64,000 nucleotides of DNA from Burkholderia sp. BCC0506 (GCF_902833145.1 NZ_CADFEN010000011.1:124001-188000), one strand, 5' to 3'. Counted from the first letter of the stretch, positions 25,877 to 51,959 are shown. A program made the numbers and translations. The notes: a model not told the origin generated them from the letters alone.

Positions 25877-25939
25877 TTGACAGCGGTTCTGCGGCGCACC
25901 TAAGATTGGTTCACATAAAGTACGTGTACGTATTTTATG
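25877..25939 (+). promoter_or_regulatory. Sigma-70 promoter with palindromic operator (site 1)
   Basis: TTGACA (25877-25882), 18-base spacer, TAAGAT (25901-25906). The operator 25914-25939 is a near-perfect 26-bp palindrome with core AGTACGTGTACGTA flanked by CATAAA/TTTATG. It covers the expected transcription start, so a bound repressor would block initiation. It drives the MBL-fold hydrolase gene at 26146. Confidence 0.8.
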
Positions 25940-26145
25940 CCGACGCAACTGCCGGCCGCTGATGGACGGAACCGAGTGCCTTGACGTTCCCGCAACCCCA
26001 TACGAATTCGTAAGGTCCTGGAGCGCTACGCCTGCTCGGCAAGCGGGTCTTGTCGGGCGATTGGGTTCCGTGCGAGAGTCGTCCAATAGACATATTAATT
26101 CGGTATACGAAATTTCACATACATCATTCATATCAGGAGACTCAC

Positions 26146-27081
26146 GTGAGCGCCCCATCTATCATCGGCTCCCAACCTATGCGAGACACGGATTACTCGA
26201 TCTGGGCGCTCGCATATTGCCAGGCAGATATGCCGCAGGACTTTTTCGGCGGCGCCGGCATCTACAGCAACGCCGGCACCATCCGGATTCCCATGATCTA
26301 CACATTGCTGGTCGGGGGCGAAGTCGGTGGCAAGCAGCATGTTGCGCTCGTCGACTGCGGATTTCGCAATGACCATTGGCTGACGCGCTACCCGTTCTCC
26401 AGCTGGGAAGAGCCGCGAGACGTATTGGGACGCATCGGTTTTGCGCCGGAGGACGTCGATACGATCCTGGTGACGCACATGCACTTCGACCATATGGGAA
26501 ATTTCGAAGCCTTCCCGAACGCCAAGCTGTATGTGCAGCTCGACGAGTATCTGGGCTGGTCACAGGCGGTCTGTGCGGTCCATCAGCACGAAACCGAGGA
26601 AGAGAAGGCGTGGGTGTTCTCCTCGTTCGATCCGATGGATCTGATCCGTGCGGCGCAGGGCGTTTCGGAAGGTCGGATCAAGTTCATCCGCGGCGACGAA
26701 GAGGTCTTGCCGGGCATCACGGCCCGCCTCGCCAAGGACAGTCATACGTTCGGCTCGCAGTGGTTCGAGGTGAATACACGTAACGGTCCATTTGTTGCCG
26801 CCGGCGACATTGTCTACTGGTACTCGAATATCGACCGCATGTGGCCGCCCGGCTATCACCAGGGTAACGCGTTCAATCAGATTCACGTGTACCGCCAGAT
26901 GCGCGAACTACTCAAGCAGAAGACGGAGCGAGTCATCCCCGGTCACGATCCGGAGGTCTGGAACCGCCACTCTTCTTGGGAAGCACCTCCGAACGGGAAT
27001 CAGATTGCCGAGGTCAATCTGAAAGAAGGGGATACGTCACGGCGCCCCGACGTAACCGCGTCGAAGATCATCAGTATCTGA
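26146..27081 (+). CDS. Metallo-beta-lactamase-fold hydrolase (AHL-lactonase/BxdA-like)
   Basis: 311 residues from GTG 26146 with a CAGGAGA ribosome binding site; the upstream in-frame ATG would place translation through the leader. The dizinc signature HMHFDH occupies residues 111-116, with DCGFRNDHW before it and VIPGHDPEVW near residue 282. The family includes N-acyl-homoserine lactonases and the bacterial benzoxazolinone hydrolase BxdA, enzymes that open cyclic esters or carbamates. As the first gene behind operator 1 and next to an aminophenol pathway, it could release 2-aminophenol from benzoxazolinone. AHL lactonase activity is the main alternative. Confidence 0.85.
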   Translation: MSAPSIIGSQPMRDTDYSIWALAYCQADMPQDFFGGAGIYSNAGTIRIPMIYTLLVGGEVGGKQHVALVDCGFRNDHWLTRYPFSSWEEPRDVLGRIGFAPEDVDTILVTHMHFDHMGNFEAFPNAKLYVQLDEYLGWSQAVCAVHQHETEEEKAWVFSSFDPMDLIRAAQGVSEGRIKFIRGDEEVLPGITARLAKDSHTFGSQWFEVNTRNGPFVAAGDIVYWYSNIDRMWPPGYHQGNAFNQIHVYRQMRELLKQKTERVIPGHDPEVWNRHSSWEAPPNGNQIAEVNLKEGDTSRRPDVTASKIISI

Positions 27082-27197
27082 ACCCGGTGCGTTTCGCGGG
27101 CGGGAGCGCGGCACTCGGAACCCGTCCGCCTGCCGGTGCTGACATCGCGGCCGCGGCAGATGATCGAATCCAAAACCTGCAAACTTTCAGGGTAACC

Positions 27198-27596
27198 ATG
27201 CATCGCGAAATTGTTTCGTCGAACGTTCTGCCAACGCCACGTTTTCGTTATAGCCCCGTCGTGCGGGTCGGCCCTTTTGTTTTTGTCTCTGGCCTCGTTG
27301 GGCTGGACCCGTCGACCGGCAGTCTCGCTGATGGCGGGGCATATGGGCAGACGGCGCAAATTCTCGGAAACCTGAAGCGGCTATGCGATGAACAGAGCTG
27401 GACGCTTTCTGACCTGGTCGTGGCGCGGGTGTTCTGTGCGAACACGGCAGACGCCGCAGCGGTGAATGAAGCGTGGGAGGAAGCGTTCGAACATGTCGAG
27501 CCGCCCGCCAGAACATTTGTGACTGTCAGCAGATTGCCGCTTGGGGCTGCCGTGGAGATCGAATTTCAGCTCTTGCCAGGGGAGCGGCGGAGTTGA
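27198..27596 (+). CDS. RidA/YjgF-family protein
   Basis: 132 residues from ATG 27198. The RidA fold shows in YSPVVRVGPFVFVSGLVGLD, and in NLKRLCDEQSWTLSDLVVAR; the terminal VEIEFQLLP replaces the more usual VEIE(A/M)VA end. RidA proteins hydrolyse reactive 2-aminoacrylate-type enamines/imines, and some relatives deaminate 2-aminomuconate. It is probably co-transcribed with the MBL-fold gene 116 bases upstream. It is clearly different from the dedicated 2-aminomuconate deaminase at 33890, so a protective or accessory imine hydrolase is likely. Confidence 0.82.
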   Translation: MHREIVSSNVLPTPRFRYSPVVRVGPFVFVSGLVGLDPSTGSLADGGAYGQTAQILGNLKRLCDEQSWTLSDLVVARVFCANTADAAAVNEAWEEAFEHVEPPARTFVTVSRLPLGAAVEIEFQLLPGERRS

Positions 27597-27670: not shown

Positions 27671-28201
27671 TCACAAACCCGCTTCGGGCTCCGATTCGAC
27701 GATCAGTTTCAGGCACTTCACAAAAAGCGGCCGGTATTCTTCCGGTAGTTTATCAAGCAGCTTTTTCTCGACTCCGGCGTCTCGCGGCAGCACACGGTTC
27801 AGCGTCTCGATGCCGTTCTTGGCGATGTGCAGGCGATAAGCTCGCTGGTCGTCTTCCGAAGGACTCCGTACGAGCATCTCGTTCGCGCAGAGCCTTTTCA
27901 CCATCTCCGCGATCGTGTTTCGGTCCATGTGCAACTGATCGGCCAACTCGCTTTGCTTCAGACCGGGGTGTTGAGCAACCACCACGAGGGCGGCCTTTTG
28001 CCTCGGCGTCAACGATTCGGATGCGAACTCCCGGCTGAATATGTCTTCTGCAATGAAGTGTGCTCGCCTCAGCAGGTGAGAGGCCACCTCTTCCAGGCGG
28101 AAGTGATCCAGAGCATGTTGCGCTTCCTTTGACAGGCCGATCGAGCTGGAACCCGCCGACTTGTTCTTTGCGGGTTTGTCGTTCTTCTTGGGTGAAGGCA
28201 T
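27671..28201 (-). CDS. MarR-family transcriptional regulator, candidate island repressor
   Basis: 176 residues from ATG 28201 (MPSPKKNDKPAKNKSAG, a basic N-terminal arm). The winged helix lies at about residues 65-130: LTPRQKAALVVVAQHPGLKQ, then LADQLHMDRNTIAEMVKRL and the wing SEDDQRAYRLHI. MarR dimers bind palindromes and release them on binding aromatic ligands. It is transcribed away from the amn operon; a copy of the island palindrome overlaps a TATAAT in its own upstream region (28474-28497), which would allow autoregulation. It is the only MarR gene in the window and the best candidate for the protein that reads the six operators. Confidence 0.9.
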   Translation of the reverse strand: MPSPKKNDKPAKNKSAGSSSIGLSKEAQHALDHFRLEEVASHLLRRAHFIAEDIFSREFASESLTPRQKAALVVVAQHPGLKQSELADQLHMDRNTIAEMVKRLCANEMLVRSPSEDDQRAYRLHIAKNGIETLNRVLPRDAGVEKKLLDKLPEEYRPLFVKCLKLIVESEPEAGL

Positions 28202-28473: not shown

Positions 28474-28497
28474 CATAACGTACGCACACGTATTATA
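28474..28497 (-). promoter_or_regulatory. Operator copy overlapping a -10 box of marR (site 2)
   Basis: CATAACGTACGCACACGTATTA is a weaker version of the shared palindrome. On the minus strand TATAAT (28497-28492) overlaps it. No good -35 was found, and the leader to marR would be about 280 bases. Confidence 0.55.
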
Positions 28498-28723: not shown

Positions 28724-28785
28724 TTGACACCATGGCGACACGGCTCCTATTATCGAATCAACAAAGTACGTATACGTACATTTGT
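28724..28785 (+). promoter_or_regulatory. amn operon promoter with palindromic operator (site 3)
   Basis: TTGACA (28724-28729), 18-base spacer, TATTAT (28748-28753). The operator 28761-28785 has the perfect 14-bp palindrome GTACGTATACGTAC (28766-28779) flanked by ACAAA/TTTGT. It covers the expected transcription start, the same layout as site 1. The leader before amnB is about 200 bases. Confidence 0.85.
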
Positions 28786-28929: not shown

Positions 28930-29877
<948 letters not shown>

Positions 29878-29928: not shown

Positions 29929-30744
29929 ATGTCTATTGTTTCCGCGTTCATTGTTCCCGGTAGTCCGCTGCCCGAGCTTCGTTCCGACGTGCCGGGATGG
30001 CACCAATTCAAGCTGGCCATGCAACAGGCCGGCACTGCATTGAAAGCGTCCAAACCCGATGTCGTGCTGGTGTACTCGACGCAATGGTTTGCCGTGCTCG
30101 ACGAGATCTGGCTGACCCGAAGGCGCAGCCAGGACGTACACGTCGACGAGAACTGGCACGAGTTCGGCGAGCTGCAGTACGACCTCTATAGCGACGTGGA
30201 CCTCGCGACGCTGTGCATTCAGTCTTGCCAGAGCCAGGGTATCAACGCACGCGGCGCGGATTACCAGAACTTCCCGATCGACACGGGCACGATCGTCGCC
30301 AGCAGCGGCCTGGGGATCGGAGGGGAGGATCTGCCGCTGGTGGTGGCGTCCAACAATCTCTACGACAACGGCGAGGCGACGGCAAAGCTGGCGTCTATCG
30401 CGGTCTCCAGCGCGCAGCAGCAGGGGAAGAAGGTCGCCGTCGTGGGTGTGGGAGGACTGTCCGGAAGCGTTTTCACGAAGGACATTGATCCCAGTACCGA
30501 TCACATCGTCAAGCCGGAGGAAGACGAGTGGAACCGGCGGATGCTGGCGCTGTTTGAAGCAGGCGATGCCGACTCGATTCGCGAACTGTTCCCCGCCTAC
30601 GCCAAAGGCGCGCGTGTCGACATGGGCGGCAAGCACTTCAGCTGGGTGCTCGGTGCGCTCGGCGGCACTTTCGCGGGCGCCAAGGTTCACCACTACGGCC
30701 CGCTGTATGGGAGCGGTGCTGCGGTCATTGAATTCCGGATCTAA
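29929..30744 (+). CDS. amnA: 2-aminophenol 1,6-dioxygenase, alpha subunit
   Basis: 271 residues from ATG 29929, the usual AmnA length; a GTG nine bases earlier is also in frame. It is homologous to AmnB but has lost the metal ligands: FIVPGSPLPELR and VLVYSTQWFAV stand where AmnB has its His residues. In the known enzyme this subunit is structural, forming an alpha2beta2 tetramer. The 51-base gap from amnB has no strong ribosome binding site. A long hairpin follows the stop. Confidence 0.92.
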   Translation: MSIVSAFIVPGSPLPELRSDVPGWHQFKLAMQQAGTALKASKPDVVLVYSTQWFAVLDEIWLTRRRSQDVHVDENWHEFGELQYDLYSDVDLATLCIQSCQSQGINARGADYQNFPIDTGTIVASSGLGIGGEDLPLVVASNNLYDNGEATAKLASIAVSSAQQQGKKVAVVGVGGLSGSVFTKDIDPSTDHIVKPEEDEWNRRMLALFEAGDADSIRELFPAYAKGARVDMGGKHFSWVLGALGGTFAGAKVHHYGPLYGSGAAVIEFRI

Positions 30745-30748
30745 TGCC

Positions 30749-30850: not shown

Positions 30851-32326
30851 ATGAAGCACTATCGAAATTTTGTAGATGGCCGATGGGTCGAAAGCACGCG
30901 TACGTTCGAAGATATCAGCCCTGTCGACGGTTCTCTGGTTGCGATAGTCCATGAGGCAAGCCGGGATCTGGTGGATCAGGCGGTCAAGGCCGGGCACCGG
31001 GCAGTCGCGGGCGAGTGGGGGCGCACCGGAACGGCGGAGCGGGTCGCCATGCTGCGCCGTATCGCCGACGAGATGGAACGCCGCCAGGACGATTTCCTTG
31101 CCGCCGAGATGGCGGATACCGGCAAGCCCCTTGCGATGGCGTCGAGCATCGATATCCCGCGGGGCATCGCAAACTTTCGCGCGTTCGCCGATATGCTCGC
31201 CACCGCGCCGCTCGACAGCCATCGGCTGGATCTCGCCGACGGCGGCTACGCGCTCAACTACGCTGCCCGCAAGCCACTGGGCGTCGTGGGCGTGATTTCC
31301 CCATGGAACCTGCCGCTGCTGTTGCTGACCTGGAAGGTCGCGCCGGCGCTGGCATGCGGTAACGCGGTCGTGGTGAAGCCTTCCGAGGAAACGCCGGGTA
31401 GCGCGACGTTGCTCGCCGAGGTCATGGAAGCCGCCGGCGTACCGCCCGGCGTGTTCAACCTGGTCCACGGTTTCGGGCCGGACTCCGCCGGCGAATTCAT
31501 CTCGCGTCATGAGGACATCAGCGCCATCACGTTTACCGGGGAGTCGCGCACGGGTACGACGATCATGCGTGCAGCGGCAGAGGGGGTGAAGCCGGTCTCA
31601 TTCGAGCTTGGCGGCAAGAATGCGGCGATCATTTTCGCCGACTGCGATTTCGACAAGATGCTCGACGGCATGATGCGTGCGCTATTCCTCAATAGCGGCC
31701 AGGTGTGCCTGTGTTCGGAACGCGTGTATGTCGAGCGGCCGCTCTTCGATCGATTCTGCGCGGCGTTGGTCGAGCGGATCAAAGCGATGAAGATCGACTG
31801 GCCCAACGACCCGAATACGCACATGGGGCCGCTCATTTCGGCCAAGCATCGCGACAAGGTGATGAGCTACTTCGGCCTGGCGCGCGACGAAGGGGCGACC
31901 TTCCTGACCGGCGGCAAAGCGCTGCGTTTCGGCGATGAGCGTGACGACGGCGCGTGGGTGGAGCCGACGGTGATCACCGGCCTGCCGGACGATGCGCGAT
32001 CGGTGCGCGAGGAAATCTTCGGGCCGATCTGCCATGTTGCACCGTTCGACAGCGAGCGCGAAGTGATCGCCCGCGCCAACGATACGCGGTACGGCCTGGC
32101 CGCGACGATCTGGACGTCGAACCTGAGCCGTGCGCATCGCGTGAGCGAGTCGATGCGTGTGGGTATCAGCTGGGTCAATACCTGGTTCCTGCGCGACCTG
32201 CGCACGCCGTTTGGCGGGGCGGGCCTGTCCGGTATCGGACGCGAGGGCGGGATGCATTCGCTCAATTTCTATTCGGAGCTGACCAACGTTTGCGTGCGCG
32301 TTGACGAGGAGATCGAGCATGTCTGA
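30851..32326 (+). CDS. amnC: 2-aminomuconate 6-semialdehyde dehydrogenase
   Basis: 491 residues of the NAD-dependent aldehyde dehydrogenase family. [20 protein letters not shown] and [11 protein letters not shown] form the cofactor site, [12 protein letters not shown] holds the general-base Glu, and [12 protein letters not shown] holds the nucleophilic Cys. It oxidises the ring-cleavage product to 2-aminomuconate. Position third in amnBACFEDHG supports the substrate; relatives act on 2-hydroxymuconate semialdehyde (DmpC/XylG). Its stop overlaps the start of amnF by eight bases. Confidence 0.92.
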
Positions 32327-33104
32327 ACGAGTCCAACACGTGGCCGACCTGCTCGACCGGGCGGCCAGAACGGGGCAGCCGATTGCGCCGGTGCGTGAGC
32401 ACTTCACCGGTGGCGTCGCCGAGGCGTACGCGGCACAAGACCTGAATACGCAGCGTCAGGTACGCGAAGGGCGCCGTGTGACCGGCCGCAAGATCGGACT
32501 GACTTCGCTCGCCGTGCAGAAGCAACTGGGCGTCGATCAGCCCGACTTCGGAACGCTGTTCGACTCGATGGCGGTCAACGACAACGAGGAGATGGCCTGG
32601 TCTCGGCTGATGCAGCCGAAGTGCGAGGCCGAGGTGGCGCTGGTGCTCGAGCGCGACCTCGACGGCCAACACATCGTCATGACCGATCTCCTGGCGGCGA
32701 CCGCTTACGTGCTGCCCGCCATCGAAGTGGTCGGAAGCCGCATCGCGAACTGGGACATCAATATTCTCGACACCATTGCGGACAATGCATCCGCGGGCCT
32801 CTACGTGCTGGGGCAGCGTCCGGTCAAGCTTGCCGATCTGGACCTGCGGCTGGCCGGCATGATCATGGAGCGCAAGGGGGACGCCGTGTCGCTCGGCGTG
32901 GGTGCCGCGTGTCTCGGTCATCCGCTGAACGCAGCGCTCTGGCTTGCGCGGACCCTCGTCGACATGGGGACGCCGCTACGCGCCGGCGACGTGGTGCTGA
33001 CCGGCGCCCTCGGGCCGCTTGTCACGGTTTCCCCCGGCGACGTCATCGAGGCGCGCATCCAGGGTCTCGGTAGCGTACGTGCGCGCTTTGCCGAGGCCGG
33101 TTGA
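32319..33104 (+). CDS. amnF: 2-keto-4-pentenoate (2-oxopent-4-enoate) hydratase
   Basis: 261 residues from ATG 32319, overlapping amnC by eight bases. The fumarylacetoacetate-hydrolase-like fold shows in [37 protein letters not shown] (metal-binding acids) and the C-terminal [15 protein letters not shown]. It hydrates 2-hydroxypenta-2,4-dienoate to 4-hydroxy-2-oxovalerate. It is paralogous to the next gene; such hydratases and decarboxylases usually form a complex that channels the unstable dienol. Confidence 0.92.
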
Positions 33105-33113: not shown

Positions 33114-33884
33114 ATGAAAATTCAACGTATTGCCAAGCGTCTCGACGATGCTGCAGTGAGCGGGCAGGCCACGCCGCAATTGACCGGTGACGATGCCGTG
33201 ACGCTTGAAGAAGCCTATGCCGTGCAGCGGGCGCTGGTAGGCCATCGTCTGGCGCGTGGGGCGCACCAGATCGGCATGAAGATGGGTTTCACGAGCCGGG
33301 CCAAGATGGCGCAGATGGGCGTCTCCGATCTGATTTGGGGCCGGCTCACATCCGACATGTGGGTCGAGGAAGGCGGCAGCATCGCACTGTCGGACTACGT
33401 TCATCCGCGAGTCGAGCCGGAAGTGTGCTTTCTGCTGGGCAAGCGGCTCGAAGGCAAGGTTACGCCGCTGCAGGCTCTCGCTGCAGTAGAGGCGGTGGCG
33501 CCCGCGCTCGAAGTGATCGATTCGCGCTACCGCGACTTCAAGTTCTCACTGCCCGATGTCGTGGCCGACAACGCTTCGTCGTCCGGCTTCGTGGTGGGTC
33601 AGTGGCACGCACGGGACACCGATGTGGGCAATCTGGGGCTGGTGATGTCCTTCGATGGTCGCCCCGTGGAAATGGGGACTACTGCTGCCATCCTCGGCGC
33701 GCCGATTCGTGGATTGGTCGCTGCCGCGCGTCTGGCGGCGCAGCAAGGCGAGGCGCTCGAAGCAGGAAGTCTCGTTCTGGCAGGGGCGGCAACTGCAGCT
33801 GTCGCGTTGCGCCCAGGCGTGGCGGTGAGCTGCGAGTTTCAGAACCTGGGCAAGGTGGTGTTCAACGTCCGGCGCGAGGAGTGA
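33114..33884 (+). CDS. amnE: 4-oxalocrotonate decarboxylase
   Basis: 256 residues of the DmpH/XylI family, homologous to the adjacent hydratase. [38 protein letters not shown] and GALRPGVAV-like C-terminal strands are typical. It decarboxylates 4-oxalocrotonate, with metal-dependent release of CO2, to 2-hydroxypenta-2,4-dienoate. It starts nine bases after amnF with a TTGAGGAGAT ribosome binding site, so the two are translationally linked. Confidence 0.92.
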
Positions 33885-33889: not shown

Positions 33890-34321
33890 ATGACAGAGAC
33901 AGTCCAAAAGCACGCGGCGGTCGTGGAGGGCAAAGCCCGGCCCCTCGGGGCGTACCCGCACATCAAGCGTGCAGGGGATTTCCTGTTCGTATCGGGCACG
34001 AGCTCCCGGCGCGCCGACAACACCATTGCCGGCGCGGAACTCGATGCGTCGGGCAGGGCACGACCGGATATCGAGGTACAGACGCGAGAGGTCATCCAGA
34101 ACATTCGCGACATCCTCCGCAGCGCCGGCGCCGACCTGAAGGATGTGGTCGAAGCGTGCAGCTATCTGGTCAACATGAACGACTTCCCCCTGTACAACCA
34201 GGTCTACTCGGAATTCTTCGATGTGGACGGGCCGACGCGCACGACCGTGGCCGTGCATCAGCTGCCGCATCCTCATCTCGTCATCGAAATGAAGGTCGTG
34301 GCATACAAGCCAATCAGTTGA
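33890..34321 (+). CDS. amnD: 2-aminomuconate deaminase
   Basis: ATG 33890 gives 143 residues, the length of AmnD/NbaF. It belongs to the RidA superfamily ([20 protein letters not shown], then [20 protein letters not shown]). It removes the amino group of 2-aminomuconate as ammonia, yielding 4-oxalocrotonate, which is the step that separates aminophenol from catechol meta-cleavage. It begins only five bases after amnE. The presence of this gene is the strongest single reason for calling the pathway 2-aminophenol rather than catechol. Confidence 0.93.
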
Positions 34322-34406: not shown

Positions 34407-35348
34407 GTGTCAGCGAATCGCGTACTAGCGGCGATCATCGGGTCGGGCAACATCGGCACCGACTTGATGATCAAGATCCTGCGTCATGGCAAGTCCCTGA
34501 AAATGGGCGCCATGGTCGGCATCGATCCACAATCGGACGGCCTGGCGCGCGCTGCGCGTCTCGATGTACCGGTGACGGCCGGCGGCATCGACGGCCTCCT
34601 CGCGATGCCAAATTTCAGCGACATCCGCATCGTGTTCGACGCGACGTCGGCAGGTGCGCACAAGCGTCACAACGAACTGCTGCAAGCAAAGGGCGTCCAG
34701 GTGATCGACCTCACGCCGGCTGCGATCGGCCCGTACGTGATTCCGGCGATCAATATCGACGAGCATCTCGATTCGCCGAACATCAACATGGTGACGTGCG
34801 GCGGGCAGGCCACCATTCCGATGGTGAAGGCCGTTTCGCGCGTGGCGAAGGTGCATTACGGCGAAATCATTGCATCGATCTCGAGCAAGTCGGCCGGCCC
34901 CGGCACGCGGGCTAACATCGACGAGTTCACCGAGACCACGTCGAAGGCGATCGAGGTGATCGGGGGCGCCGCGCGCGGCAAGGCCATCATCATCCTCAAC
35001 CCGGCCGAGCCGCCGCTCATCATGCGCGACACCGTGTTCACGCTATCGGAAATGGCGGATACGAAGGCTATCGAGAAAAGCATCGCCGAGATGGTGGAAT
35101 CCGTGCAGGGCTATGTGCCCGGATACCGGCTGAAGCAGCGTGTCCAGTTCGAGGAAATCTCCGCGGCGAACCCGTTGAACGTGCCGGGCCTCGGAAAGCT
35201 GTCGGGCTTGAAGACCACGGTCTTTCTGGAAGTCGAAGGCGCTGCGCACTACCTTCCTGCTTATGCGGGCAATCTCGACATCATGACCTCCGCCGCGCTT
35301 GCGTGTGCCGAGCGTTTCGCGCAGACGCGCCTGGTAGAAGCCACCTGA
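34407..35348 (+). CDS. amnH: Acetaldehyde dehydrogenase (acylating)
   Basis: 313 residues from GTG 34407 with AAAGGAAG upstream; an upstream in-frame start would add a 28-residue low-complexity leader. The Rossmann motif [15 protein letters not shown] and the nucleophile in [12 protein letters not shown] (Cys131) match DmpF/MhpF/BphJ. It turns acetaldehyde, CoA and NAD into acetyl-CoA and NADH. It normally forms a heterotetramer with the aldolase encoded next, channelling acetaldehyde between active sites. Confidence 0.95.
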
Positions 35349-40339: not shown

Positions 40340-40397
40340 CGAGGGCATGCTTGCGACGCGTACGAGAACCGGTTTTTCAAGTGACATGGAGCAAGCA

Positions 40398-42084: not shown

Positions 42085-42699
42085 ATGAACGCTACAAATT
42101 TGCTTCTGCTTGATTGCAGCCCGCGGAACGACAACTCGACAAGCCGGTACTTCACCGAGCATTTGTTGCCAACGTTGATGGCCCGCACCGAACGAAACAT
42201 TCAGGTGACACGGCGCAAGATCGGCACTGAGCCGCTGCCGCCTCTTACAGCCGAATATGCCGAATCCCTGCTTTTACCTGCCGCGGAGGCAAGAGAGCGG
42301 TATGGCGCGGCGCTTGCTGTTTCCGATCAACTGATACAGGAGCTCGACGCAGCGGACGTACTGTGGATCTCGACCCCCGTGCATAACTTCACGGTGCCAG
42401 CTGCACTCAAGACCTGGATCGACCTTGTCGTTCGCCGCGACGTAACGTTCGTGGCAACGGAAAAAGGCAAGGTGGGCTTGTTGCGCGATCGTCCTACGTA
42501 TATTGCGGTTACATCCGGCGGCGCGATGTTTCACGAGCCGCCTCGCCAGCCGGATTTCTTTCGTCCTTACCTGACCACCGTGTTGGGCGTCATTGGTATC
42601 AAAGACATTACCTTCGTGCATGCCACCGGCCTTGCTTTTGTTGAAGAGCCGCTTGCTGTGCTCGAAGAAAAAGCAGCGCAATGGACTATCCGCGATTGA
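42085..42699 (+). CDS. FMN-dependent NADH:azoreductase/quinone reductase-like flavoprotein
   Basis: 204 residues with a flavodoxin-like fold. LLLDCSPRNDNSTSRYFTEH is the FMN phosphate loop, ISTPVHNFTVPAALKTWIDL and YIAVTSGGAMF complete the AzoR signature. AzoR enzymes reduce quinones, azo bonds and nitro compounds with NADH. Here it could reduce quinone imines formed by aminophenol oxidation, or process an azo/nitro precursor. The ribosome binding site is weak. Confidence 0.85.
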   Translation: MNATNLLLLDCSPRNDNSTSRYFTEHLLPTLMARTERNIQVTRRKIGTEPLPPLTAEYAESLLLPAAEARERYGAALAVSDQLIQELDAADVLWISTPVHNFTVPAALKTWIDLVVRRDVTFVATEKGKVGLLRDRPTYIAVTSGGAMFHEPPRQPDFFRPYLTTVLGVIGIKDITFVHATGLAFVEEPLAVLEEKAAQWTIRD

Positions 42700-42952: not shown

Positions 42953-43007
42953 TAGACAGCATTAAATCGGCCGACTACTTTCCATATAGTACGTACACGT
43001 ACATATA
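42953..43007 (+). promoter_or_regulatory. Sigma-70 promoter with palindromic operator (site 5)
   Basis: TAGACA (42953-42958), 17-base spacer, TACTTT (42976-42981). The operator 42985-43007 has the core AGTACGTACACGTAC with TATA/TATA flanks and covers the expected start site. It drives the NCS1 permease gene. Confidence 0.75.
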
Positions 43008-43071: not shown

Positions 43072-44508
43072 ATGAAGGAAGAAAGTTTGAGCGTGAAGAT
43101 GGAGGATCACGCACTGGAACCCGTGCCGGACGATGCTCGGCAAGGATGGTTGTCTTTGACCTGGAGTACGGCTGGCATCGTCGTATCCCTGGTTCAACTA
43201 TTTTTCGGTGCGTTGGTTACGTTCGTGGCCGGTATCAAGATCGGCTTGCTTGCCGGGGTCGTTGTGACCATTGTCGGCGCGCTGCTTGGCTGGGCATGCG
43301 GCCATGTCGCGTATCGATCGGGTCTGTCCAGCACCGTCATGTCCCGTTACTTCGGGTTCGGTCGCAGAGGGTCGATCGTCTCTTCGCTGATTTTTGCGTT
43401 CATGATCATCGGGTTTCTAGCGCTCGAGAATGCGCTGTTGTACAAGGGCTTCATCTTTTATCTGGGGATCGCGGATACGCTCACTGCCCGAATCGTCATT
43501 TATGGCTTGATGACGATCCTCTGGGTGTTCCTCACGGCATATGGATTCAAGCTCGTTGCCCGTGTCTCGTCGATCGCTCTGATTCTGTCGCTGATCGTGC
43601 TGGCCTACATCATGGAAGTGGTCATTTCCAGCAGTCCGCATACTGCAGCCGACCTGTTTTCGTTTGGATCGCAATTTCCGGTCGATACGCTCAAGGCGAT
43701 GGGTGCAGGCAGCGACATGCACAAGTTCATCTTCGCCGTGAACGTCCTGATCGGGTCCGCGGGCGCGCTTGCATTGTTCGACGCCGATCTCGGTCGGTAT
43801 GCTCGCCGCTCGCGAGATATTGGAATCGCCGCGTTGCTGGGTAATCTGTCAATGGATGTGCTGATGCTCGTGCTCGGCGGTGTGATCATGTACGCGGGTA
43901 TCCCTTCGCTCGTGGATTTCTACATGCATACGGCCGGTATGACGCGGGAGGCCGCGATGCACGCGTCGCTGCAAAGCCCGGACAGCATTACCGCCGCATT
44001 CGTGGTCTTCGGTGGTGTGATGGGGGCTTTGCTGATGGTCCTTGCACAGGGCAAGACGCAGGTGCTGAACACGTACAGCGCGTCCTTGTCGCTTTCCAAT
44101 CTTTTCGACGCACTCAACTTCCGTCCCGGCCGACTGACGTTCGTGGTTCTTGCCAACATCGTTGGATTGCTGATGCTCTACGGGCAAATTCTTGCGCTGG
44201 TCAATTCCTGGATCACGATCCTCGGGGTGCTGACGACGGCGTTTGCGGGCATTGTCGTCGCTGACTTTTTCATCGTCAGGCGTGTCTCGAAGGAAGAGCT
44301 GGATTTGAAGGCGCCGGCGGAGAATGTCAATTGGGCTGGGGTCGTCACGCTGATCGTTGCGGTGATCACCTCGCACTATCTGCTCGCACAGATCATTCCC
44401 GTGGAAGCAATCACGACCGTTGTGATTTGCATCGTGGTTTATCCCGCATTGCGCCTGACGGTTCTCAAGCCGAACCGGGCGGGGCGCCCAGCAGCAGCGA
44501 TGCTCTGA
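43072..44508 (+). CDS. NCS1-family permease (purine-cytosine permease-like)
   Basis: 478 residues with twelve hydrophobic helices; GKIGLLAGVVVTIVGALLGWACGHV-type helix 2 region and LAQGKTQVLNTYSASLSLSN match the CodB/cytosine-permease branch. NCS1 carriers are sodium- or proton-driven importers of nucleobases, hydantoins and related heterocycles. Its own copy of the island promoter/operator suggests it imports the inducing substrate or an intermediate; a small nitrogen heterocycle such as benzoxazolinone would suit the family. The ribosome binding site is AGGAGCGAGAA before ATG 43072. Confidence 0.88.
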   Translation: MKEESLSVKMEDHALEPVPDDARQGWLSLTWSTAGIVVSLVQLFFGALVTFVAGIKIGLLAGVVVTIVGALLGWACGHVAYRSGLSSTVMSRYFGFGRRGSIVSSLIFAFMIIGFLALENALLYKGFIFYLGIADTLTARIVIYGLMTILWVFLTAYGFKLVARVSSIALILSLIVLAYIMEVVISSSPHTAADLFSFGSQFPVDTLKAMGAGSDMHKFIFAVNVLIGSAGALALFDADLGRYARRSRDIGIAALLGNLSMDVLMLVLGGVIMYAGIPSLVDFYMHTAGMTREAAMHASLQSPDSITAAFVVFGGVMGALLMVLAQGKTQVLNTYSASLSLSNLFDALNFRPGRLTFVVLANIVGLLMLYGQILALVNSWITILGVLTTAFAGIVVADFFIVRRVSKEELDLKAPAENVNWAGVVTLIVAVITSHYLLAQIIPVEAITTVVICIVVYPALRLTVLKPNRAGRPAAAML

Positions 44509-44700: not shown

Positions 44701-45480
44701 ATGAGCAATATCCTGAAGCAGTTTTCGGAAGCGATCGCACAGGGCGCGATCGAGGTCATTGACTTGAGCCATACCTTGCAGGCGCGCACGCCGATCATCG
44801 GACTGCCGCCGCAGTACGGTCAGACGGCCCCGTTCCGCCTGGACGAGATCTCGAACTTCGACGAGCGCGGGCCGAATTGGTATTGGAACAACTTCTCGTG
44901 CGGCGAACACACCGGTACGCACTTCGATGCGCCGGTGCACTGGATCACTGGCAAGGACTATCCGGACGGTGCGACGGATACCATCTCGGTGCAGAAATTC
45001 ATCGCGCCGGCGTGTGTGATCGATGTCTCGGATCGGGTGAAGGAAAACGAGGATTTTCTGTTGACCGTTGCCGATGTCGAGGCATGGGAGAAGGACTACG
45101 GGCGGATTCCTGCCGGCGCGTGGGTGTTGATGCGAACGGGCTGGTCGTCGCGCAATTTGACCGACGGCTTCTTGAATACGCGTGAGGACGGTGGTCATTC
45201 GCCGGGACCGTCGGAAGATCTGCCGCAATTTTTGGCCAAGGAGCGCGATGTGATCGGTTTTGGTACGGAACCCGTCGGCACCGACGCCGGACAGGCCTAC
45301 GCGTTCGCGAAGCCGTTCCCGTGTCATCACACGATGCACGGCAGCAACAAGTTCGGCCTGTCGAGCCTGGCGAACCTGGACCGCTTGCCGCCCACCGGAT
45401 CGATGTTGATTACGCCGCCGCTGAAGATCAAGCGCGGTTCGGGTAGCCCGTGCCGGGTACTCGCGCTGGTGGAGCGTTAA
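44701..45480 (+). CDS. Cyclase-family metal-dependent amidohydrolase (kynurenine formamidase/isatin hydrolase-like)
   Basis: 259 residues with an AAGGAG ribosome binding site. The metal-binding signature HTGTHFDAPVH (His70, His74, Asp76, His80) is intact, and HHTMHGSNKFGLSSLANLDR supplies the later conserved His residues. The family (Pfam Cyclase) hydrolyses N-formylkynurenine, isatin and similar cyclic or aryl amides. In this setting it might open a lactam or deacylate an N-acyl aminophenol. It follows the NCS1 permease by 192 bases and may share its transcript. A short hairpin (45496-45521) follows the stop. Confidence 0.85.
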   Translation: MSNILKQFSEAIAQGAIEVIDLSHTLQARTPIIGLPPQYGQTAPFRLDEISNFDERGPNWYWNNFSCGEHTGTHFDAPVHWITGKDYPDGATDTISVQKFIAPACVIDVSDRVKENEDFLLTVADVEAWEKDYGRIPAGAWVLMRTGWSSRNLTDGFLNTREDGGHSPGPSEDLPQFLAKERDVIGFGTEPVGTDAGQAYAFAKPFPCHHTMHGSNKFGLSSLANLDRLPPTGSMLITPPLKIKRGSGSPCRVLALVER

Positions 45481-45974: not shown

Positions 45975-47078
45975 ATGAAGGGGGAGGCAATCAAGTGCAG
46001 GACGGCCGCGTTGACTGTTGCGGTTGCAGCATCGTTCGGATGCTTTGCGATCGCTGCACATGCGCAAAGCAGCGTCGAAATATACGGGGTGCTGGATACA
46101 GGCCTCGATTACGTCAGCAACGTCGGCGGGAAGAGGCAGTTCTCTTTCGGTAGTGGTGTGATGGCGCCGAACTTGTTCGGATTTCGCGGCAAGGAGGACC
46201 TGGGCGGAGGGTTGTCGGCGACGTTCGTGATCGAAGGGCAATTCAACGAAGGAACGGGCGCCTCAATCGGAAACACGTTCGGTCGACTGACTTATTTGGC
46301 GCTGGCCGACCAAAAATGGGGCCGCGTGACCCTGGGTAATCAGTATGACTTCATGTTCACGTCGCTGGCGATTCGGCGTTACGGCCCAGCGTTCCCGGTC
46401 GTTACGCTTCAGAACCTGCGGCAAGGCCCCTTCAACGCGTTGAACGTTCCCAATCTGCCGGCCGGCGGATTCGATTTCGACCGCGTCTCCGGTCAACGTC
46501 TCGCCAATGCGATCAAGTACGAGAGCCCGGATATCAAGGGATTCAGCTTTGGCGCCATGTACGGGTTCGGCGGCGTTGCGGGCGCATTCTCGCAAAATAG
46601 CTCGCAGAGCTTCGGTATCGACTATGGCAATAGTCTGTTCAATCTTGACGCTGCCTACACGTATGTCCGTTACCCGACCATGAACAACGGGAATTCCGGC
46701 ATCCGGACCTTTGGCCTCGGTGGCGGTGTGTTTGTCGGGCCGGCCTATGTCGACCTTCTCTATACAAATACGAGAAATACGGCAACTGGCGGAGCCGTGA
46801 ATGTGTACGAGGTCGGTGGCATGTATCCCGTCAACCCGTTCCTGCGTATCGAAGTGGCTTATCAGTTCATGGACGGAAACGCGGTACTTAATGGAAACAA
46901 GGCGCAGCAAGTCAATACGACGTTCGACTATTCCCTTTCCAAGCGAACGGACATATACGCGACCGCTGCGTTCCAGCGCACGTCAGGCAACGGCGCGCAA
47001 GCGCAAATCACATTGTTCGGTCCTTCGTCCGGACGGAACCAACTGGCGCTGCGGGTCGGCATGCGGCACATCTTCTGA
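45975..47078 (+). CDS. Porin (Porin_4 family), island copy
   Basis: 367 residues from ATG 45975 (GAGAGCAGGG upstream). The signal peptide ends near AAHA-QSSVEIYG, the first strand is SSVEIYGVLDTGLDYV, and the protein ends LALRVGMRHIF with the terminal Phe. It is clearly different from the general porin at 8948 (about 40% similar by eye) and belongs to the specific porins often found in aromatic-degradation clusters. It probably lets the substrate or its glucoside cross the outer membrane. Confidence 0.92.
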   Translation: MKGEAIKCRTAALTVAVAASFGCFAIAAHAQSSVEIYGVLDTGLDYVSNVGGKRQFSFGSGVMAPNLFGFRGKEDLGGGLSATFVIEGQFNEGTGASIGNTFGRLTYLALADQKWGRVTLGNQYDFMFTSLAIRRYGPAFPVVTLQNLRQGPFNALNVPNLPAGGFDFDRVSGQRLANAIKYESPDIKGFSFGAMYGFGGVAGAFSQNSSQSFGIDYGNSLFNLDAAYTYVRYPTMNNGNSGIRTFGLGGGVFVGPAYVDLLYTNTRNTATGGAVNVYEVGGMYPVNPFLRIEVAYQFMDGNAVLNGNKAQQVNTTFDYSLSKRTDIYATAAFQRTSGNGAQAQITLFGPSSGRNQLALRVGMRHIF

Positions 47079-47542: not shown

Positions 47543-49793
47543 ATGAAGAATAAGAATTTTCCGGGTCTCGTTGCAACACTGTTCTTGTGCGGCGCGGCTG
47601 CGGTGATCGTGTCGGCATGTGGTGGAGATGACATCGTCGGATCCAGCGATCCCGACTCGGTTGCCGACGCGCGTGCTGCTGCGCTCGTCGCTCAGATGAC
47701 GAGACGAGAAGATTCAACTGGTGCACGGCACGGGCGATCCATTTGCGAGCTTTGGCGGGCCGTTTCCGCCAGGGATTAATGGCGCTGGGTACATCCGCGG
47801 TATCCCGCGACTCGGAATTCCGGCATTCGCAATGGCCGATTCGACCAGCGGAGTCAACGTGCGCGATGCCGGTGCAACTGCACTGCCTGCGCCAATTGCT
47901 CTTGCCGCGAGCTGGGATACCGACCTTGCAGACGAGTACGGCGCGCGTATCGCGACGGAACTGCGCACGCTCGGCTATGCAGAGGGCCTCGGTGGCGGTG
48001 TCAATCTGGCGCGCGAGCCGCGCGGAGGCCGCACATTCGAGGATCCGGTTCTGAGCGGTACGATGAGCGCGGCACGAACCACGGGGACGCAGTCGCGCAA
48101 CGTTATCGCGACGATCAAGCACTTTGCGATGAACGGCCAGGAAACGAACAGGACGACGAGCAACTCGATCGTCGACGAACGGACGATGCGTGAAACGGAA
48201 TTGCTTGCGTTCGAAATCGGAGTCAAGCAAGGTCGGCCCGGGAATGTCATGTGCGGATACAACCTGGTGAACGGTACATATTCGTGCGAGAACGCGTATT
48301 TGTTGACCGATGTGCTGAAGAACGAGTGGCGATTCGAGGGCATCGTACAGTCGGATTGGACCGGAAACCACAGCACGGTCGCTGCCGCACTCGCGGGTCT
48401 CGACGAAGAAGAGCCGGGCGATATTGGCGATCGTCCCACCGGCATCCCGGGCTTTACGCTAACTCCGTACTTCAGTTCCGGGTTGAAAGCCGCGGTGACC
48501 GCAGGCACGGTGCCTATGACGCGCTTGAACGATATGGTCCATCGAAAATTGCGCACGATGATCCGGTACGGGGTTTTCGATTCGCCGCCGACGCCAGGCG
48601 GCACGATTGATCAGGCTGCAGGCAATGCGCTTGCCTTGCGGGTTGCACAGCAATCCGCGGTGTTGCTGAAAAATGCTGCACCGTCCGGTTCCATTCAGCC
48701 GGTACTTCCTCTCGCCTCGAACAGTCTCTCCTCAATCGTGCTAATCGGTGGGCATGCGGATGTCGGTGTGATGTCGGGTGGTGGCTCCGGTACCGTACCT
48801 CCGGTCGACGGCAATGCAGTCACCACTTGCAAGCCGGCCAATGCATTCGATAGCAGCTGTGCGAACTGGTACAAGTCGGCACCGCTCGCGACGATCCGGC
48901 AGAAAGCGCCTAACGCGCAAGTTACATATTTTGATGGCACGGACGCAAACGCGGCAGCCGATGCCGCAGCACAGGCGGATGTCGCGATCGTGTTCGCGAC
49001 CCAATTCGAGCACGAGGATACCGACTTGCCGAACCTCAGTTTGCCGAACAAGGCGGCAGACCCAGCTAACGAAAGTTACGACCAGAATGCGCTGATCACG
49101 GCCGTCGCCGCAAAGGCGAAACGCGTGGTCGTGGTTCTCGAAAACGGGAGCCCCGTCGTGATGCCGTGGCTTGCCGAAGTGCATGGCGTGCTGGAAACCT
49201 GGTACCCGGGCGTGCAAGGTGGACAAGCGATTGCCGATCTGCTGTTCGGCGATGTCAATCCGTCAGGCAAGTTGCCGATCACATTCCCGATGCAGGAGTC
49301 GGATCTGCCGCAGCCGACGATTTCCGCAACGAATCTGAACGTCGACTATAGCGAAGGCCTGCTGATTGGATACCGCTGGTACGACGCGAAGCAAATCCGT
49401 CCGCTGTTTCCGTTCGGGTTTGGCTTGTCCTACACGACGTTTGCCTATTCCGCATTGAGCGCGAAGGTAGACGGCGCCGGCAAGGTGACCGTTACGTTCT
49501 CGGTTCTGAACAGCGGCGCTCGTGCCGGAGCTGAAACCGCGCAGGTCTATGCAGTGTTGCCCGCCGGGCTTGGTGAGCCGCCTCAGCGACTTGTCGGCTG
49601 GCAGAAAGTTTCGCTCCAACCTGGGGAGTCACGGCAAGTGAGCATTACCGTGCCGTCTCAATTGCTGTCGACTTGGGACGCGTCGAAGCATGCGTGGAAG
49701 TTGAATAGCGGGACCTATCACATGATCGTCGGTTCATCGTCGCGTGACACCAATGCGTTGAGTACATCAATGACCGTGACAGGTCAGTTGTGA
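47543..49793 (+). pseudogene. Glycoside hydrolase family 3 beta-glucosidase, secreted, frameshifted near 47702
   Basis: ATG 47543 (GAGGACATA upstream) gives a lipoprotein-like signal peptide (LVATLFLCGAAAVIVSACGG) and the start of the mature protein up to ALVAQMT. The family continues LDEKIQLVHG here, but the reading resumes in another frame as DEKIQLVHGTGD from 47703, as if two bases were lost. The rest is intact to 49793: KHFAMNGQETNRTTSNSIVD, the nucleophile in IVQSDWTGNH, a second alpha/beta domain and a C-terminal fibronectin-III-like domain. About 750 residues if repaired. GTG 47721 could start the body alone but without signal peptide. GH3 enzymes split beta-glucosides, including plant secondary-metabolite glucosides. 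Confidence 0.88.
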
Positions 49794-50015: not shown

Positions 50016-50071
50016 TTGACGCCCGAGCACCCGTCCACCTACACTTGCTTATAGTACGTGTACGTTCAAAA
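50016..50071 (+). promoter_or_regulatory. Sigma-70 promoter with palindromic operator (site 6)
   Basis: TTGACG (50016-50021), 18-base spacer, TACACT (50040-50045). The operator 50051-50071 has core AGTACGTGTACGTT. An additional GTACGTAC half-palindrome lies at 50088-50095. It drives the alpha/beta hydrolase-SDR pair. Confidence 0.75.
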
Positions 50072-50215
50072 TGCGGGTTGCATCGATGTACGTACCGGGA
50101 ATTGTGACAGCGCGAGGCGTTTGCCTGCCTATAGGCAGGAGCGCTGATGACCAGGACTGTCCTGCCCGGAAAAAGCAAGCAGTTGCCGTGCATGTTCATC
50201 ACCATGGGAGGGGAG

Positions 50216-51205
50216 ATGCGGAGAGTTGTCGATGCGGGCCGCAGGAGGGTTTTATCAGGCGCTATCGCGGCAACGGCCGCCGCGCTTGCGAGTAAAGTTG
50301 GCGCCCAACAGAGCGCACAGCATGGCAAGCCCGTGTGGCTGGATTTCGATCAGGCATCGTTGGACAGGGCTTATGACCAGGAGGCTTATGCCCCCAACCT
50401 GGACACCGTGATCAAACGTTGGGAGACCAATAGCGACGATGCGCGTACCCGGCTGGGCGCACCCAGAAAACTTCAGTACGGGCCGACGTCTGTTGAAACG
50501 CTGGACTTGTATCCGGCCAATGCGAAAAAGGCTCCGATTCACGTTTTTGTTCACGGAGGAGCTTGGCGCGCCGGCTCGGCAAGTCAGTTCGGTTTCATTG
50601 CCGAGATGTTCGTGCAGCGAGGCGTGCATTTTATTGCTCCGGATTTCATCAACGTGATCGAGGCCGGGGGAAACCTGATGCAGATGTCCGAGCAGGTCAA
50701 TCGATGCCTGGAGTGGGTTTACAGGAATGCAGCATCGTTTGGCGGCGACCCTGACCGGATCTATCTATCCGGTCACTCCTCGGGGGCGCACCTGGCGGCT
50801 GTTGCGCTCACCACGAACTGGGAGAGGGACTTCCGGCTGCCGGGCGATTTCATCAAGGCCGCGACGCTGGTCAGCGGGATATACGATCTGAAGCCTGTGC
50901 GCCTGTCGTCACGGAGCAAATACGTGAAGTTTACCGACGAGGCGGAGGAGCGTCTGAGCCCTCAGCGCCATCTCGATCAATTGCGGGTACCGCTGGCGTT
51001 GGTGCACGGAACGCTCGAGACGCCCGAGTTCATGCGGCAAAGCGACGATTTTGCGGCGGCCGTTCGGAAAGCGGGCAAGCCTGCGAGTCTGGTCATTGGA
51101 CGAGGCTATAACCACGTCGAGATACTGGAAACGCTCGGCAACCCATACGGAGTTGCCGGGCGCTATGCGCTCGCGCAGCTTAACGGTGAAGCATTCAACT
51201 CGTGA
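50216..51205 (+). CDS. Exported alpha/beta hydrolase (arylformamidase/esterase-like)
   Basis: ATG 50216 gives 329 residues beginning MRRVVDAGRRRVLSGAIAAT, a twin-arginine-like signal peptide ending near KVGAQ; an in-frame ATG at 50147 would bury this signal. HVFVHGGAWRAG forms the oxyanion hole, GHSSGAHLAA carries the nucleophilic Ser, and YNHVE the catalytic His. The closest families are kynurenine formamidase-like BD-FAE hydrolases, which cleave N-formyl or N-acyl arylamines. Export would place hydrolysis in the periplasm, before uptake of the released arylamine. First gene behind site 6; the SDR follows after seven bases. Confidence 0.85.
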   Translation: MRRVVDAGRRRVLSGAIAATAAALASKVGAQQSAQHGKPVWLDFDQASLDRAYDQEAYAPNLDTVIKRWETNSDDARTRLGAPRKLQYGPTSVETLDLYPANAKKAPIHVFVHGGAWRAGSASQFGFIAEMFVQRGVHFIAPDFINVIEAGGNLMQMSEQVNRCLEWVYRNAASFGGDPDRIYLSGHSSGAHLAAVALTTNWERDFRLPGDFIKAATLVSGIYDLKPVRLSSRSKYVKFTDEAEERLSPQRHLDQLRVPLALVHGTLETPEFMRQSDDFAAAVRKAGKPASLVIGRGYNHVEILETLGNPYGVAGRYALAQLNGEAFNS

Positions 51206-51212
51206 GGAAAGT

Positions 51213-51959
51213 ATGGCTAGTCTTGAAGGAAAGGTCGCACTGGTAACCGGTGCGTCGAAAGGAATCGGGGCTGCAATAGCCAAGGCGTTCGCAGCGCATG
51301 GCGCTGCAGTAGTCGTGGCCTATGCATCCAGCAAGTCCGGCGCGGATGCCGTGGTGGACGAAATCACTGGGCAAGGCGGAAAAGCAGTGGCCGTCACAGG
51401 AGATGTATCGAAAGAGACCGATGCTGCCAATCTGGTCCAGGCGGCCATTGATGAATTCGGGCGCCTCGACATCTTGGTGAACAATTCCGGCGTCTATGCG
51501 TTTGGCCCCATAGAAGAGGTGTCGGCAGCTGAGTTCCACCGGCAGTTCAATACCAATGTGCTTGGACCTTTATTGGTCACGAAAGCTGCAGTGAAGCATC
51601 TTGCCGAGGGCGCGAGCATCATCAATATCGGGTCGGCCGCGTCCCACGTCCCGCGAGCGGGGAGCGTGGTTTACACAGGCACCAAGGCCGCAGTCGATGC
51701 GATTACCGGTGTTCTGGCTCAAGAGCTGGGTTCGCGAAAAATTCGCGTGAACTCGATCAACCCGGGCTATGTGGTGACTGAGGGGACACATAGCGCCGGC
51801 TTTCCCGGTTCGGATGCCGAGGCCGACATGATTGCCAGAACGGCCCTCGGACGTGCTGGGCAGCCCGACGACGTCGCAGACATTGCTGTCTTCCTTGCTT
51901 CCGATCAGGCTCGTTGGATCACGGGCGAAATTCTTCTGGCTACCGGCGGCATGCGTTGA
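51213..51959 (+). CDS. Short-chain dehydrogenase/reductase
   Basis: 248 residues from ATG 51213 (GAGGAAAG upstream). VTGASKGIGAAIAKAFAAHG is the NAD(P) glycine motif, LVNNSGVYAFG the NNAG-type motif, and YTGTK carries the catalytic Tyr and Lys. LATGGMR at the C terminus is usual for FabG-like SDRs. The substrate is unknown; co-transcription with the hydrolase suggests an oxidation or reduction of its product. Confidence 0.9.
   Translation: MASLEGKVALVTGASKGIGAAIAKAFAAHGAAVVVAYASSKSGADAVVDEITGQGGKAVAVTGDVSKETDAANLVQAAIDEFGRLDILVNNSGVYAFGPIEEVSAAEFHRQFNTNVLGPLLVTKAAVKHLAEGASIINIGSAASHVPRAGSVVYTGTKAAVDAITGVLAQELGSRKIRVNSINPGYVVTEGTHSAGFPGSDAEADMIARTALGRAGQPDDVADIAVFLASDQARWITGEILLATGGMR

Follow-up and report, generated by a model that had tools for sequence, protein, structure and literature searches.

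A mobile-looking gene block in Burkholderia sp. BCC0506 that may join the breakdown of benzoxazinoid-type plant chemicals to the 2-aminophenol pathway

Analysis of a 64-kb stretch of the 7.29-Mb genome of Burkholderia sp. BCC0506 (the window, to which all coordinates refer) revealed a mobile-looking block of genes that lies on one strand, apart from marR, between ~24.9 and 52 kb. It may enable Burkholderia to convert benzoxazinoid-type defence compounds of plants to 2-aminophenol and to live on the latter. The block holds the known 2-aminophenol (amn) pathway, whose assignment by homology is secure, together with a metallo-beta-lactamase-fold (MBL) hydrolase whose strong link to the catabolism of 2-aminophenol rests on operator, operon and co-occurrence. 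We put at roughly 0.7 the probability that entry steps for benzoxazinoids or benzoxazolinone (BOA) are joined to amn under one AmnR switch. The entry of plant chemicals is a strong prediction from sequence; benzoxazinoids fit best as the substrate, while man-made benzoxazolinones or isatin-type lactams are possible. Such an island had been proposed in a preliminary description of this DNA, and every gene named there (MBL, amn genes, molybdoenzyme, arylamine N-acetyltransferase (NAT), NCS1 permease, cyclase, porin and GH3 glucosidase) is present. Its amn pathway and MBL link stand, its glucosidase step does not, and a second entry arm is plausible.

The amn pathway and its shared operator

The coordinates of all features are collected in Table 1. 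The LigB-type pair AmnBA stands in one run with an aldehyde dehydrogenase, a deaminase, a hydratase, a decarboxylase, an aldolase and an acetaldehyde dehydrogenase, and AmnB matches a solved 2-aminophenol 1,6-dioxygenase (PDB 8IHG); the claim of a complete pathway is thereby borne out. By close homology AmnBA would open the ring, and AmnCFEDHG would lead on to pyruvate, acetyl-CoA and ammonium. The gene order B-A-C-F-E-D-H-G is as previously described, with F and E assigned after the annotation of Comamonas CNB-1 (hydratase, then decarboxylase; 43% and 37% identity, the second by a narrow margin). The attribution of this order to Pseudomonas sp. AP-3 comes from the preliminary description; PMC3790839 places amnD within amnFEGH in AP-3 and states no more of the order. 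The divergent MarR is identified by homology as an AmnR-type repressor, being 61% and 59% identical to the MarR proteins of the amn/cnb clusters of Pseudomonas veronii and CNB-1, and 60% to that beside the amn genes of Pseudomonas poae. The AmnJ-type RidA protein shares 54-58% identity with the RidA encoded upstream of amnB in CNB-1, P. veronii and Bordetella hinzii. Elsewhere, plasmid pC of Ensifer adhaerens (L032) carries an amn operon with two RidA genes, an amidase, a nitroreductase and a pyruvate carboxylase, with no MBL annotated in the stretch.

In PMC3790839, five bacteria are named in which the MarR site TAG(G/T)ACGTATACGTACTA precedes amnJ, strain LB400 having a near form of it. Six sites in the window match this published consensus, the divergent MarR being present as well. 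The operator core was taken as the 16-nt palindrome AGTACGTNNACGTACT, of which the first 15 bases, AGTACGTNNACGTAC, with up to two mismatches were used for the window count. This returned 10 matches in the window (six sites, four of them on both strands) where 0.69 are expected, a number reached by 0 of 100 shuffles, and the earlier claim that one operator joins amn to further genes thus holds. Genome-wide, with at most one mismatch, there are 10 matches, seven of them in the block (four sites) and three elsewhere; since the reversed pattern gave nine, the count alone is neither raised nor unusual. What is unusual is the clustering and the promoters: a sigma70-like promoter scoring at least 8.5 ends 7-12 nt upstream of four of the six operators. 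Only 1.3% of 2000 randomly chosen positions reach this score, and the operators of marR and NCS1 are the two without such a promoter.

All six operators recur in a Burkholderia cenocepacia copy of the island, and similar sites lie between marR and the RidA-amnB genes of P. veronii, CNB-1 and B. hinzii. Operator-like sites with three mismatches are found between marR and amnJ-amnB in P. poae; in the stretches read for Novosphingobium humi, Telmatospirillum and the proteobacterial metagenome-assembled genome (MAG) SZAS-87, none with up to three mismatches was seen near the amn genes. AmnR would bind all six window sites, four of them just behind a -10 box. 2-Aminophenol or a metabolite would release it, so that the entry steps would be induced along with the central pathway.

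The MBL-fold hydrolase

A scan of species genomes with the MBL protein returned 20 loci, seven of them at 67-82% identity (P. poae, B. hinzii, a Telmatospirillum MAG, SZAS-87, Arthrobacter and two Herbiconiux), and two of 218 matching plasmid records reached at least 60% (B. cenocepacia and N. humi). The gene is rare: in the Herbiconiux family, three of 398 genomes hold a relative at E<=1e-40, including one known before, and among 65 genomes of the window's genus only its own holds a relative above 40% identity. In all six other proteobacterial carriers (L029, L030, L033, L034, L035 and L039) amn genes lie within 10 kb of the MBL gene; five of these count as independent of the window, because the B. 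cenocepacia island is nearly its own copy. The gene sits inside the operon in Telmatospirillum, between amnD-like and amnE-like genes, and directly behind amnG in B. hinzii.

The protein matches PDB 8X78 (82% identity), which bears the molecule name "glyoxylase, beta-lactamase superfamily II" and is 100% identical to a protein of P. poae DSM 14936 over 296/296 aa; a full-text literature search for the code 8X78 found no paper. An N-acyl homoserine lactone (AHL) lactonase, active in quorum quenching and placed beside amn by chance, would share the fold and the HxHxDH motif. The best NCBIfam models are indeed those of pyridoxolactone and AHL lactonases, and two relatives at 32% identity are automatically annotated as AHL lactonase family. 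Yet the lactonase models score at most 67.6 bits against cut-offs of 325-475, the curated AHL-lactonase models (AiiA, AttM, AhlS, AidB, YtnP) stay at or below 60.3 bits where 360-475 are needed, and operator and operon bind the gene to amn. In the tree, the window protein groups with ten other rows of at least 66% identity (86/88), then with a Solirubrobacter protein (92/83) and, at 100/100, with the two ~32% proteins in a clade of 14 rows. This clade stands apart from an AiiB-named protein (100/100), the tree holding this protein and no assayed AHL lactonase, and from proteins of the genus at 29-34%. The metal-site His-Asp motif was read in all its rows, as HAHFDH in the two 32% proteins. A clear placement among AHL lactonases only, which would have spoken against the preliminary description, is thus not seen, and we regard an AHL lactonase as very unlikely, to the point of being nearly negligible.

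Both the MBL fold and the HxHxDH metal motif are present in the window protein, and the benzoxazolinone lactonase BxdA presumably bears the same motif, given its fold. The name, size and rarity of BxdA fit the MBL clade. Among its members the actinobacterial relatives at 67-71% are the best candidates for BxdA and fit, by description, its published range of about 60% similarity or more, their identity with BxdA being unproven. This likeness of description and range suggests that the window MBL works like BxdA, and we claim no more than this. The enzyme would then hydrolyse the cyclic carbamate of BOA to 2-aminophenol and CO2. In one carrier of the Herbiconiux family (G394), genes for a glyoxalase (VOC)-type protein, an M24 peptidase, an NAD(P)-dependent oxidoreductase and an acyl-CoA-dehydrogenase-like flavoprotein are found near the MBL gene. 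This neighbourhood agrees in part with the bxd list as published; no aldehyde dehydrogenase was found among the 14 proteins scanned there.

As a separate observation, members of the MBL clade stand, in several of the actinobacterial loci L036, L037, L038, L067 and L069, beside RidA, flavin reductase and acyl-CoA-dehydrogenase-like flavoprotein genes, a neighbourhood that may represent a different aminophenol route. The main text of a paper on an actinobacterial 2-aminophenol microcompartment contains none of the terms benzoxazin-, benzoxazol-, lactonase, amidohydrolase or isatin. Plasmid pEP1 of Sphingobium sp. EP60837 (L053, 9127-21389) carries three MBL genes among aminomethyltransferase-family, dioxygenase and maleylacetate reductase genes.

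The same enzymes and route could have been selected by xenobiotic benzoxazolinones, such as chlorinated BOA from herbicides, insecticides and drugs. Some amn/cnb relatives do come from polluted sites, namely P. veronii (aniline-contaminated site), N. humi (military shooting range) and Comamonas CNB-1, a chloronitrobenzene degrader. The BxdA literature, however, links such lactonases to benzoxazinoid-producing plants (PMC11297187), and we consider a xenobiotic origin unlikely. Nitrobenzene, the classical source of 2-aminophenol (PMC3790839), or 2-nitrophenol might likewise feed the pathway through the azoreductase-like and molybdenum enzymes, with the MBL handling a side product. The block does contain a flavin reductase-like gene, but no hydroxylaminobenzene mutase is among the family matches of the block's genes, to which (and not to the rest of the genome) the search extended; we give this route a slim chance.

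The isatin-hydrolase-like enzyme and a possible second entry

The cyclase-type amidohydrolase noted previously can be placed more sharply: its best solved relatives are isatin hydrolases (57% identity to 5NMP, 55% to 5NNB), and its recognition as a relative of these enzymes by sequence is new here. The metal motif of isatin hydrolases, HxG[T/A]HxDxPxH (PMC6117287), is present as HTGTHFDAPVH. The metal-site residue Gln219 of LaIHA and RsIHA is Ser at the aligned place; because LaIHB also lacks Gln219 (PMC6117287), its absence marks a subtype and not the family. The NCS1 permease gene claimed earlier is present too (PF02133), preceded by an operator, and its product would import the heterocycle. 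In isatin, an alpha-oxo acid is closed to its lactam; 2-hydroxy-1,4-benzoxazin-3-one (HBOA) is a glyoxylic anilide in cyclic form. The same cut on HBOA would therefore give 2-aminophenol and glyoxylate, and the enzyme probably serves to open a second type of ring, that of a benzo-fused lactam, for which HBOA is the simplest candidate. Endophytic fungi have been reported to degrade BOA and HBOA to 2-aminophenol and 2-acetamidophenol (PMC9330447).

Isatin-hydrolase chemistry, together with a BisC-type reductase gene beside the cyclase ortholog of P. poae, suggests by analogy a second entry from 2,4-dihydroxy-1,4-benzoxazin-3-one (DIBOA) through HBOA to 2-aminophenol and glyoxylate. The molybdoenzyme (931.6 bits to TIGR00509, under the cut-off of 1017.55) would here work like an N-hydroxy reductase, a claim of function only. 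No account of a bacterial HBOA hydrolase or DIBOA N-reductase was seen in listings of open-access papers.

Cyclase orthologs above 60% identity occur in five of the six proteobacterial MBL carriers (99, 76, 65, 65 and 62%), B. hinzii having none at E<=1e-20, and in two of 399 genomes from the window's order, its own and one other (G723); as the taxa of the two counts differ, the co-occurrence is suggestive only. In N. humi the cyclase gene lies between an NCS1 gene (72%) and amnBA, its plasmid (L075) having two amnBA sets (3417-5188 and 11741-13479) around NCS1 and cyclase. In P. poae it adjoins the BisC (68%) and HbpS (58%) genes, on a contig other than that of MBL-amn. The three amn-linked cyclases share the motifs CHH and GLSSL, which 0 of 24 other tree rows have; their grouping (bootstrap 52/99) is not secure.

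Several observations weigh against benzoxazinoid entry steps under the AmnR switch. The closest cyclase without a link to amn, that of G723 (76%), stands beside indolepyruvate-oxidoreductase-like genes, a name that we take from their POR and TPP domains, in a genome with no MBL at E<=1e-10. The same context is seen in SZAS-87, in the second copy of N. humi and in a Burkholderiales locus (L098), so that the cyclase family has no fixed bond with amn, and its recruitment is a possibility; G723 likewise weakens the case for proving membership of the cyclase by co-occurrence. The 192-bp gap before the cyclase gene holds no operator of its own, and no operator with up to three mismatches was found in 20 kb of P. 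poae sequence around the cyclase-BisC pair. The accessory genes have a patchy distribution: of ten carriers searched (for N. humi, the plasmid only), two hold a BisC relative at E<=1e-100 (P. poae 68%, B. hinzii 44%), and one holds NCS1 at E<=1e-30. No amn genes appear in the stretches read for five actinobacterial carriers (L036, L037, L038, G394, G446), and the homology with BxdA, as said, is one of description and range.

These contexts, and the 57% identity to isatin hydrolase 5NMP, would also suit an arrangement of two arms under one operator, with isatin or a different lactam derived from indole as the substrate of the NCS1-cyclase half and BOA as that of the MBL half. Isatinate, however, leads to anthranilate and not to 2-aminophenol, so that control by AmnR would make little sense, and the CHH and GLSSL motifs set the amn-linked cyclases apart, if in a weak grouping; we think this arrangement rather unlikely. 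As an observation in its own right, isatin-hydrolase relatives stand beside indolepyruvate-oxidoreductase-like genes at L116 (15623-19901) and at L117, L073 and L076, and a route from isatin to anthraniloyl-CoA is possible in three genomes with such relatives.

Returning to benzoxazinoids as the substrate, the fullest version would have one AmnR regulon for complete, two-armed mineralisation. A BxdA-type MBL would open BOA, while the BisC-type enzyme would reduce DIBOA at its N-OH to HBOA, whose lactam a derivative of isatin hydrolase would split into 2-aminophenol and glyoxylate. Both arms would run through amn, with NAT acetylating surplus 2-aminophenol. NAT is a candidate for the aminophenol-acetylating enzyme described as still to be identified in a maize study (mSphere 2025; PMC12483121). 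This full version is offered tentatively, and we hold it to be somewhat improbable in all its parts together.

Setting of the block and known systems

The block is flanked by a tRNA-Sec gene and an IS3-type transposase gene. Similarity running up to the tRNA stops at 21111, 21111, 21121 and 21202 in four of the five relatives compared, one of which matches the window again at 22805-23668; the fifth relative stretch (L110) starts beyond the tRNA and gives no match. Since similarity ends at or near the tRNA in these four, the region behind it is variable and was probably acquired. The tRNA-Sec gene, itself behind selA-selB, marks the junction of conserved and variable DNA in the four, and a search for an attachment-site repeat, made with 14-18 bases from either end of the tRNA, found no exact second copy in the window. 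The island of B. cenocepacia CMCC(B)23006 corresponds to 23671-47078 of the window at 95.3% DNA identity, its MBL and AmnB proteins being 99.7% and 100% identical to those of the window.

No amn operator was found before the GH3, porin or AraC1 genes. The GH3 enzyme had been proposed for deglucosylation, a step that we reject. Its gene (47543-49793 with the upstream segment) appears frame-broken: a signal-peptide-like segment upstream is in another frame, and the open frame spans 697 aa, whereas those of the other rows listed have 722-1178; it is absent from the otherwise syntenic B. cenocepacia island (L030), and relatives at E<=1e-100 occur in 60 of 65 genomes of the genus. The frame break is possibly a sequencing error. 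Longer open frames are seen in relatives of the gene, both within the genus and within this genome. The specific porin noted earlier is present, and stays a doubtful member, having no operator. The short-chain dehydrogenase gene is absent from the B. cenocepacia stretch fetched.

The NAT and molybdoenzyme genes claimed earlier were both found, the former (E=2.6e-78 to NAT1, 2BSZ) with C81, H121 and D136 in the motifs of the Cys-His-Asp triad of arylamine N-acetyltransferases. The alpha/beta hydrolase matches kynurenine formamidase 4E11 weakly, has homologs beside the MBL gene in B. hinzii (63%), Arthrobacter (43%) and P. poae (38%), and is probably exported, judged by eye from its RR-type N-terminus. 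Outside the block, the window encodes a large trimeric autotransporter adhesin (57362-60577; YadA head, stalk and anchor) and, close to it, a response regulator.

Table 1. Features of the block and its flanks, in window coordinates.
Feature	Coordinates	Strand	Evidence and remarks
tRNA-Sec	21016-21111		Flanks block on one side
AraC-family regulator AraC1	24993..25811	+	PF12833, PF02311; 98% in B. cenocepacia island
Putative AmnR operator before MBL	25919..25934	+	1 mismatch to the 16-nt core; TTGACA-18-TAAGAT ends 12 nt upstream
MBL-fold hydrolase, proposed BOA lactonase	26146..27081	+	PF00753; metal motif HMHFDH intact
RidA protein, AmnJ type	27198..27596	+	PF01042; second gene, behind MBL
MarR-family repressor, AmnR type	27671..28201	-	Divergent, upstream of amn genes
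Putative AmnR operator, marR side	28479..28494	-	3 mismatches to the 16-nt core; search for an adjacent promoter gave none that is good
Putative AmnR operator before amnB	28765..28780	+	1 mismatch; TTGACA-18-TATTAT ends 11 nt upstream
amnB, 2-aminophenol 1,6-dioxygenase beta	28963..29877	+	PF02900; PDB 8IHG E=1.3e-185; 81% to CnbCb
amnA, 2-aminophenol 1,6-dioxygenase alpha	29929..30744	+	PF02900; 62% to CnbCa
amnC, 2-aminomuconic semialdehyde dehydrogenase	30851..32326	+	PF00171; 76% to CNB-1 homolog
amnF, 2-oxopent-4-enoate hydratase	32319..33104	+	PF01557; best CNB-1 DmpE 43%
amnE, 4-oxalocrotonate decarboxylase	33114..33884	+	PF01557; best CNB-1 DmpH 37% vs DmpE 33%, narrow margin
amnD, 2-aminomuconate deaminase (RidA fold)	33890..34321	+	PF01042; 77% to P. 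veronii downstream RidA
amnH, acylating acetaldehyde dehydrogenase	34407..35348	+	PF09290
amnG, 4-hydroxy-2-oxovalerate aldolase	35359..36396	+	PF00682, PF07836
BisC/DMSO-reductase-type molybdoenzyme, proposed N-hydroxy reductase (DIBOA to HBOA)	36424..38739	+	TIGR00509, below cut-off
Small protein that we liken to 4-oxalocrotonate tautomerase	38805..39020	+	After molybdoenzyme; read from translation
Putative AmnR operator before araC2-NAT	39118..39133	+	3 mismatches (2 in B. cenocepacia copy); TTGACA-17-TAAATT ends 11 nt upstream
AraC-family regulator AraC2, AndR-like	39263..40339	+	PF14525; NF041686 AndR 165 bits, under cut-off 350
Arylamine N-acetyltransferase (NAT), proposed 2-aminophenol detoxifier	40386..41264	+	PF00797 231 bits vs cut-off 22.8
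HbpS/GlcG-like protein	41562..41966	+	PF03928; 58% homolog after BisC in P. poae
FMN-dependent NADH azoreductase/quinone-reductase-like protein	42085..42699	+	PF02525; azoreductase models under cut-offs
Putative AmnR operator before NCS1 permease-cyclase pair	42988..43003	+	1 mismatch; promoter weak by consensus
NCS1-family permease, proposed benzoxazinoid uptake	43072..44508	+	PF02133; 72% homolog among N. humi amn genes
Isatin-hydrolase-family cyclic amidohydrolase, proposed HBOA (lactam) hydrolase	44701..45480	+	PF04199
Porin, doubtful member	45975..47078	+	PF13609; in B. cenocepacia island; no operator
GH3 glycosidase, rejected as member	47721..49793	+	PF00933/PF01915
Putative AmnR operator before alpha/beta hydrolase	50053..50068	+	2 mismatches; TTGACG-18-TACACT ends 7 nt upstream
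Alpha/beta hydrolase (arylformamidase/esterase-like)	50216..51205	+	PF20434, PF07859; operator of its own
Short-chain dehydrogenase, membership unsure	51213..51959	+	PF13561
IS3-type transposase	51991-53338		Flanks block on other side

If the proposed regulon is real, it gives named genes for each step (a BxdA-like opener, one for lactams, a reductase of the N-oxide type, an acetyltransferase and a full aminophenol pathway), the AmnR operator is a ready reporter, and the block is a marker for bacteria able to remove cereal defence chemicals without leaving allelopathic aminophenoxazinone. CbaA of Pigmentiphaga DL-8 reportedly hydrolyses (chloro)benzoxazolinone to aminophenol, and is said to belong to a hydrolase family other than MBL; a similarity of 42.6% to BxdA has been given for it (PMC11297187). 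BxdA of Microbacterium LMB2 is an MBL lactonase annotated as AHL-lactonase family and similar in size to the window protein, and bacterial opening of BOA or its methoxy form, (M)BOA, by this enzyme is known. Its bxd cluster contains aldehyde dehydrogenase, VOC and NAD(P)-dependent oxidoreductase genes, the roles of the other bxd genes are called open, and no amn genes are described in the accessible part of that paper (PMC11297187). In the FDB1 and FDB2 clusters of Fusarium (MBL1, NAT1, DLH, AMD), the MBL is needed for BOA opening and NAT acylates 2-aminophenol (PMC4726666); this fungal system, likened to the window by description and not by sequence, ends in detoxification to malonamic acid.

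The isatin hydrolases RsIHA (5NMP) and LaIHA (5NNB) have the motif HxGTHxDxPxH and an Asp-His pair in common with the window cyclase, which differs from them in having Ser for Gln219, as in LaIHB, and in its amn/AmnR context. A close parallel is the amn cluster of Burkholderia xenovorans LB400 (amnRJBACDFEHG), with the same enzymes, a divergent marR, RidA (AmnJ) and an operator consensus as in the window; the accessible text lists no MBL, and gives a 'putative esterase' and transfer genes after the cluster (PMC3790839). In the window, by contrast, amnJ stands behind the MBL gene, and the operator is found also before MBL, araC2-NAT, NCS1-cyclase and the alpha/beta hydrolase.

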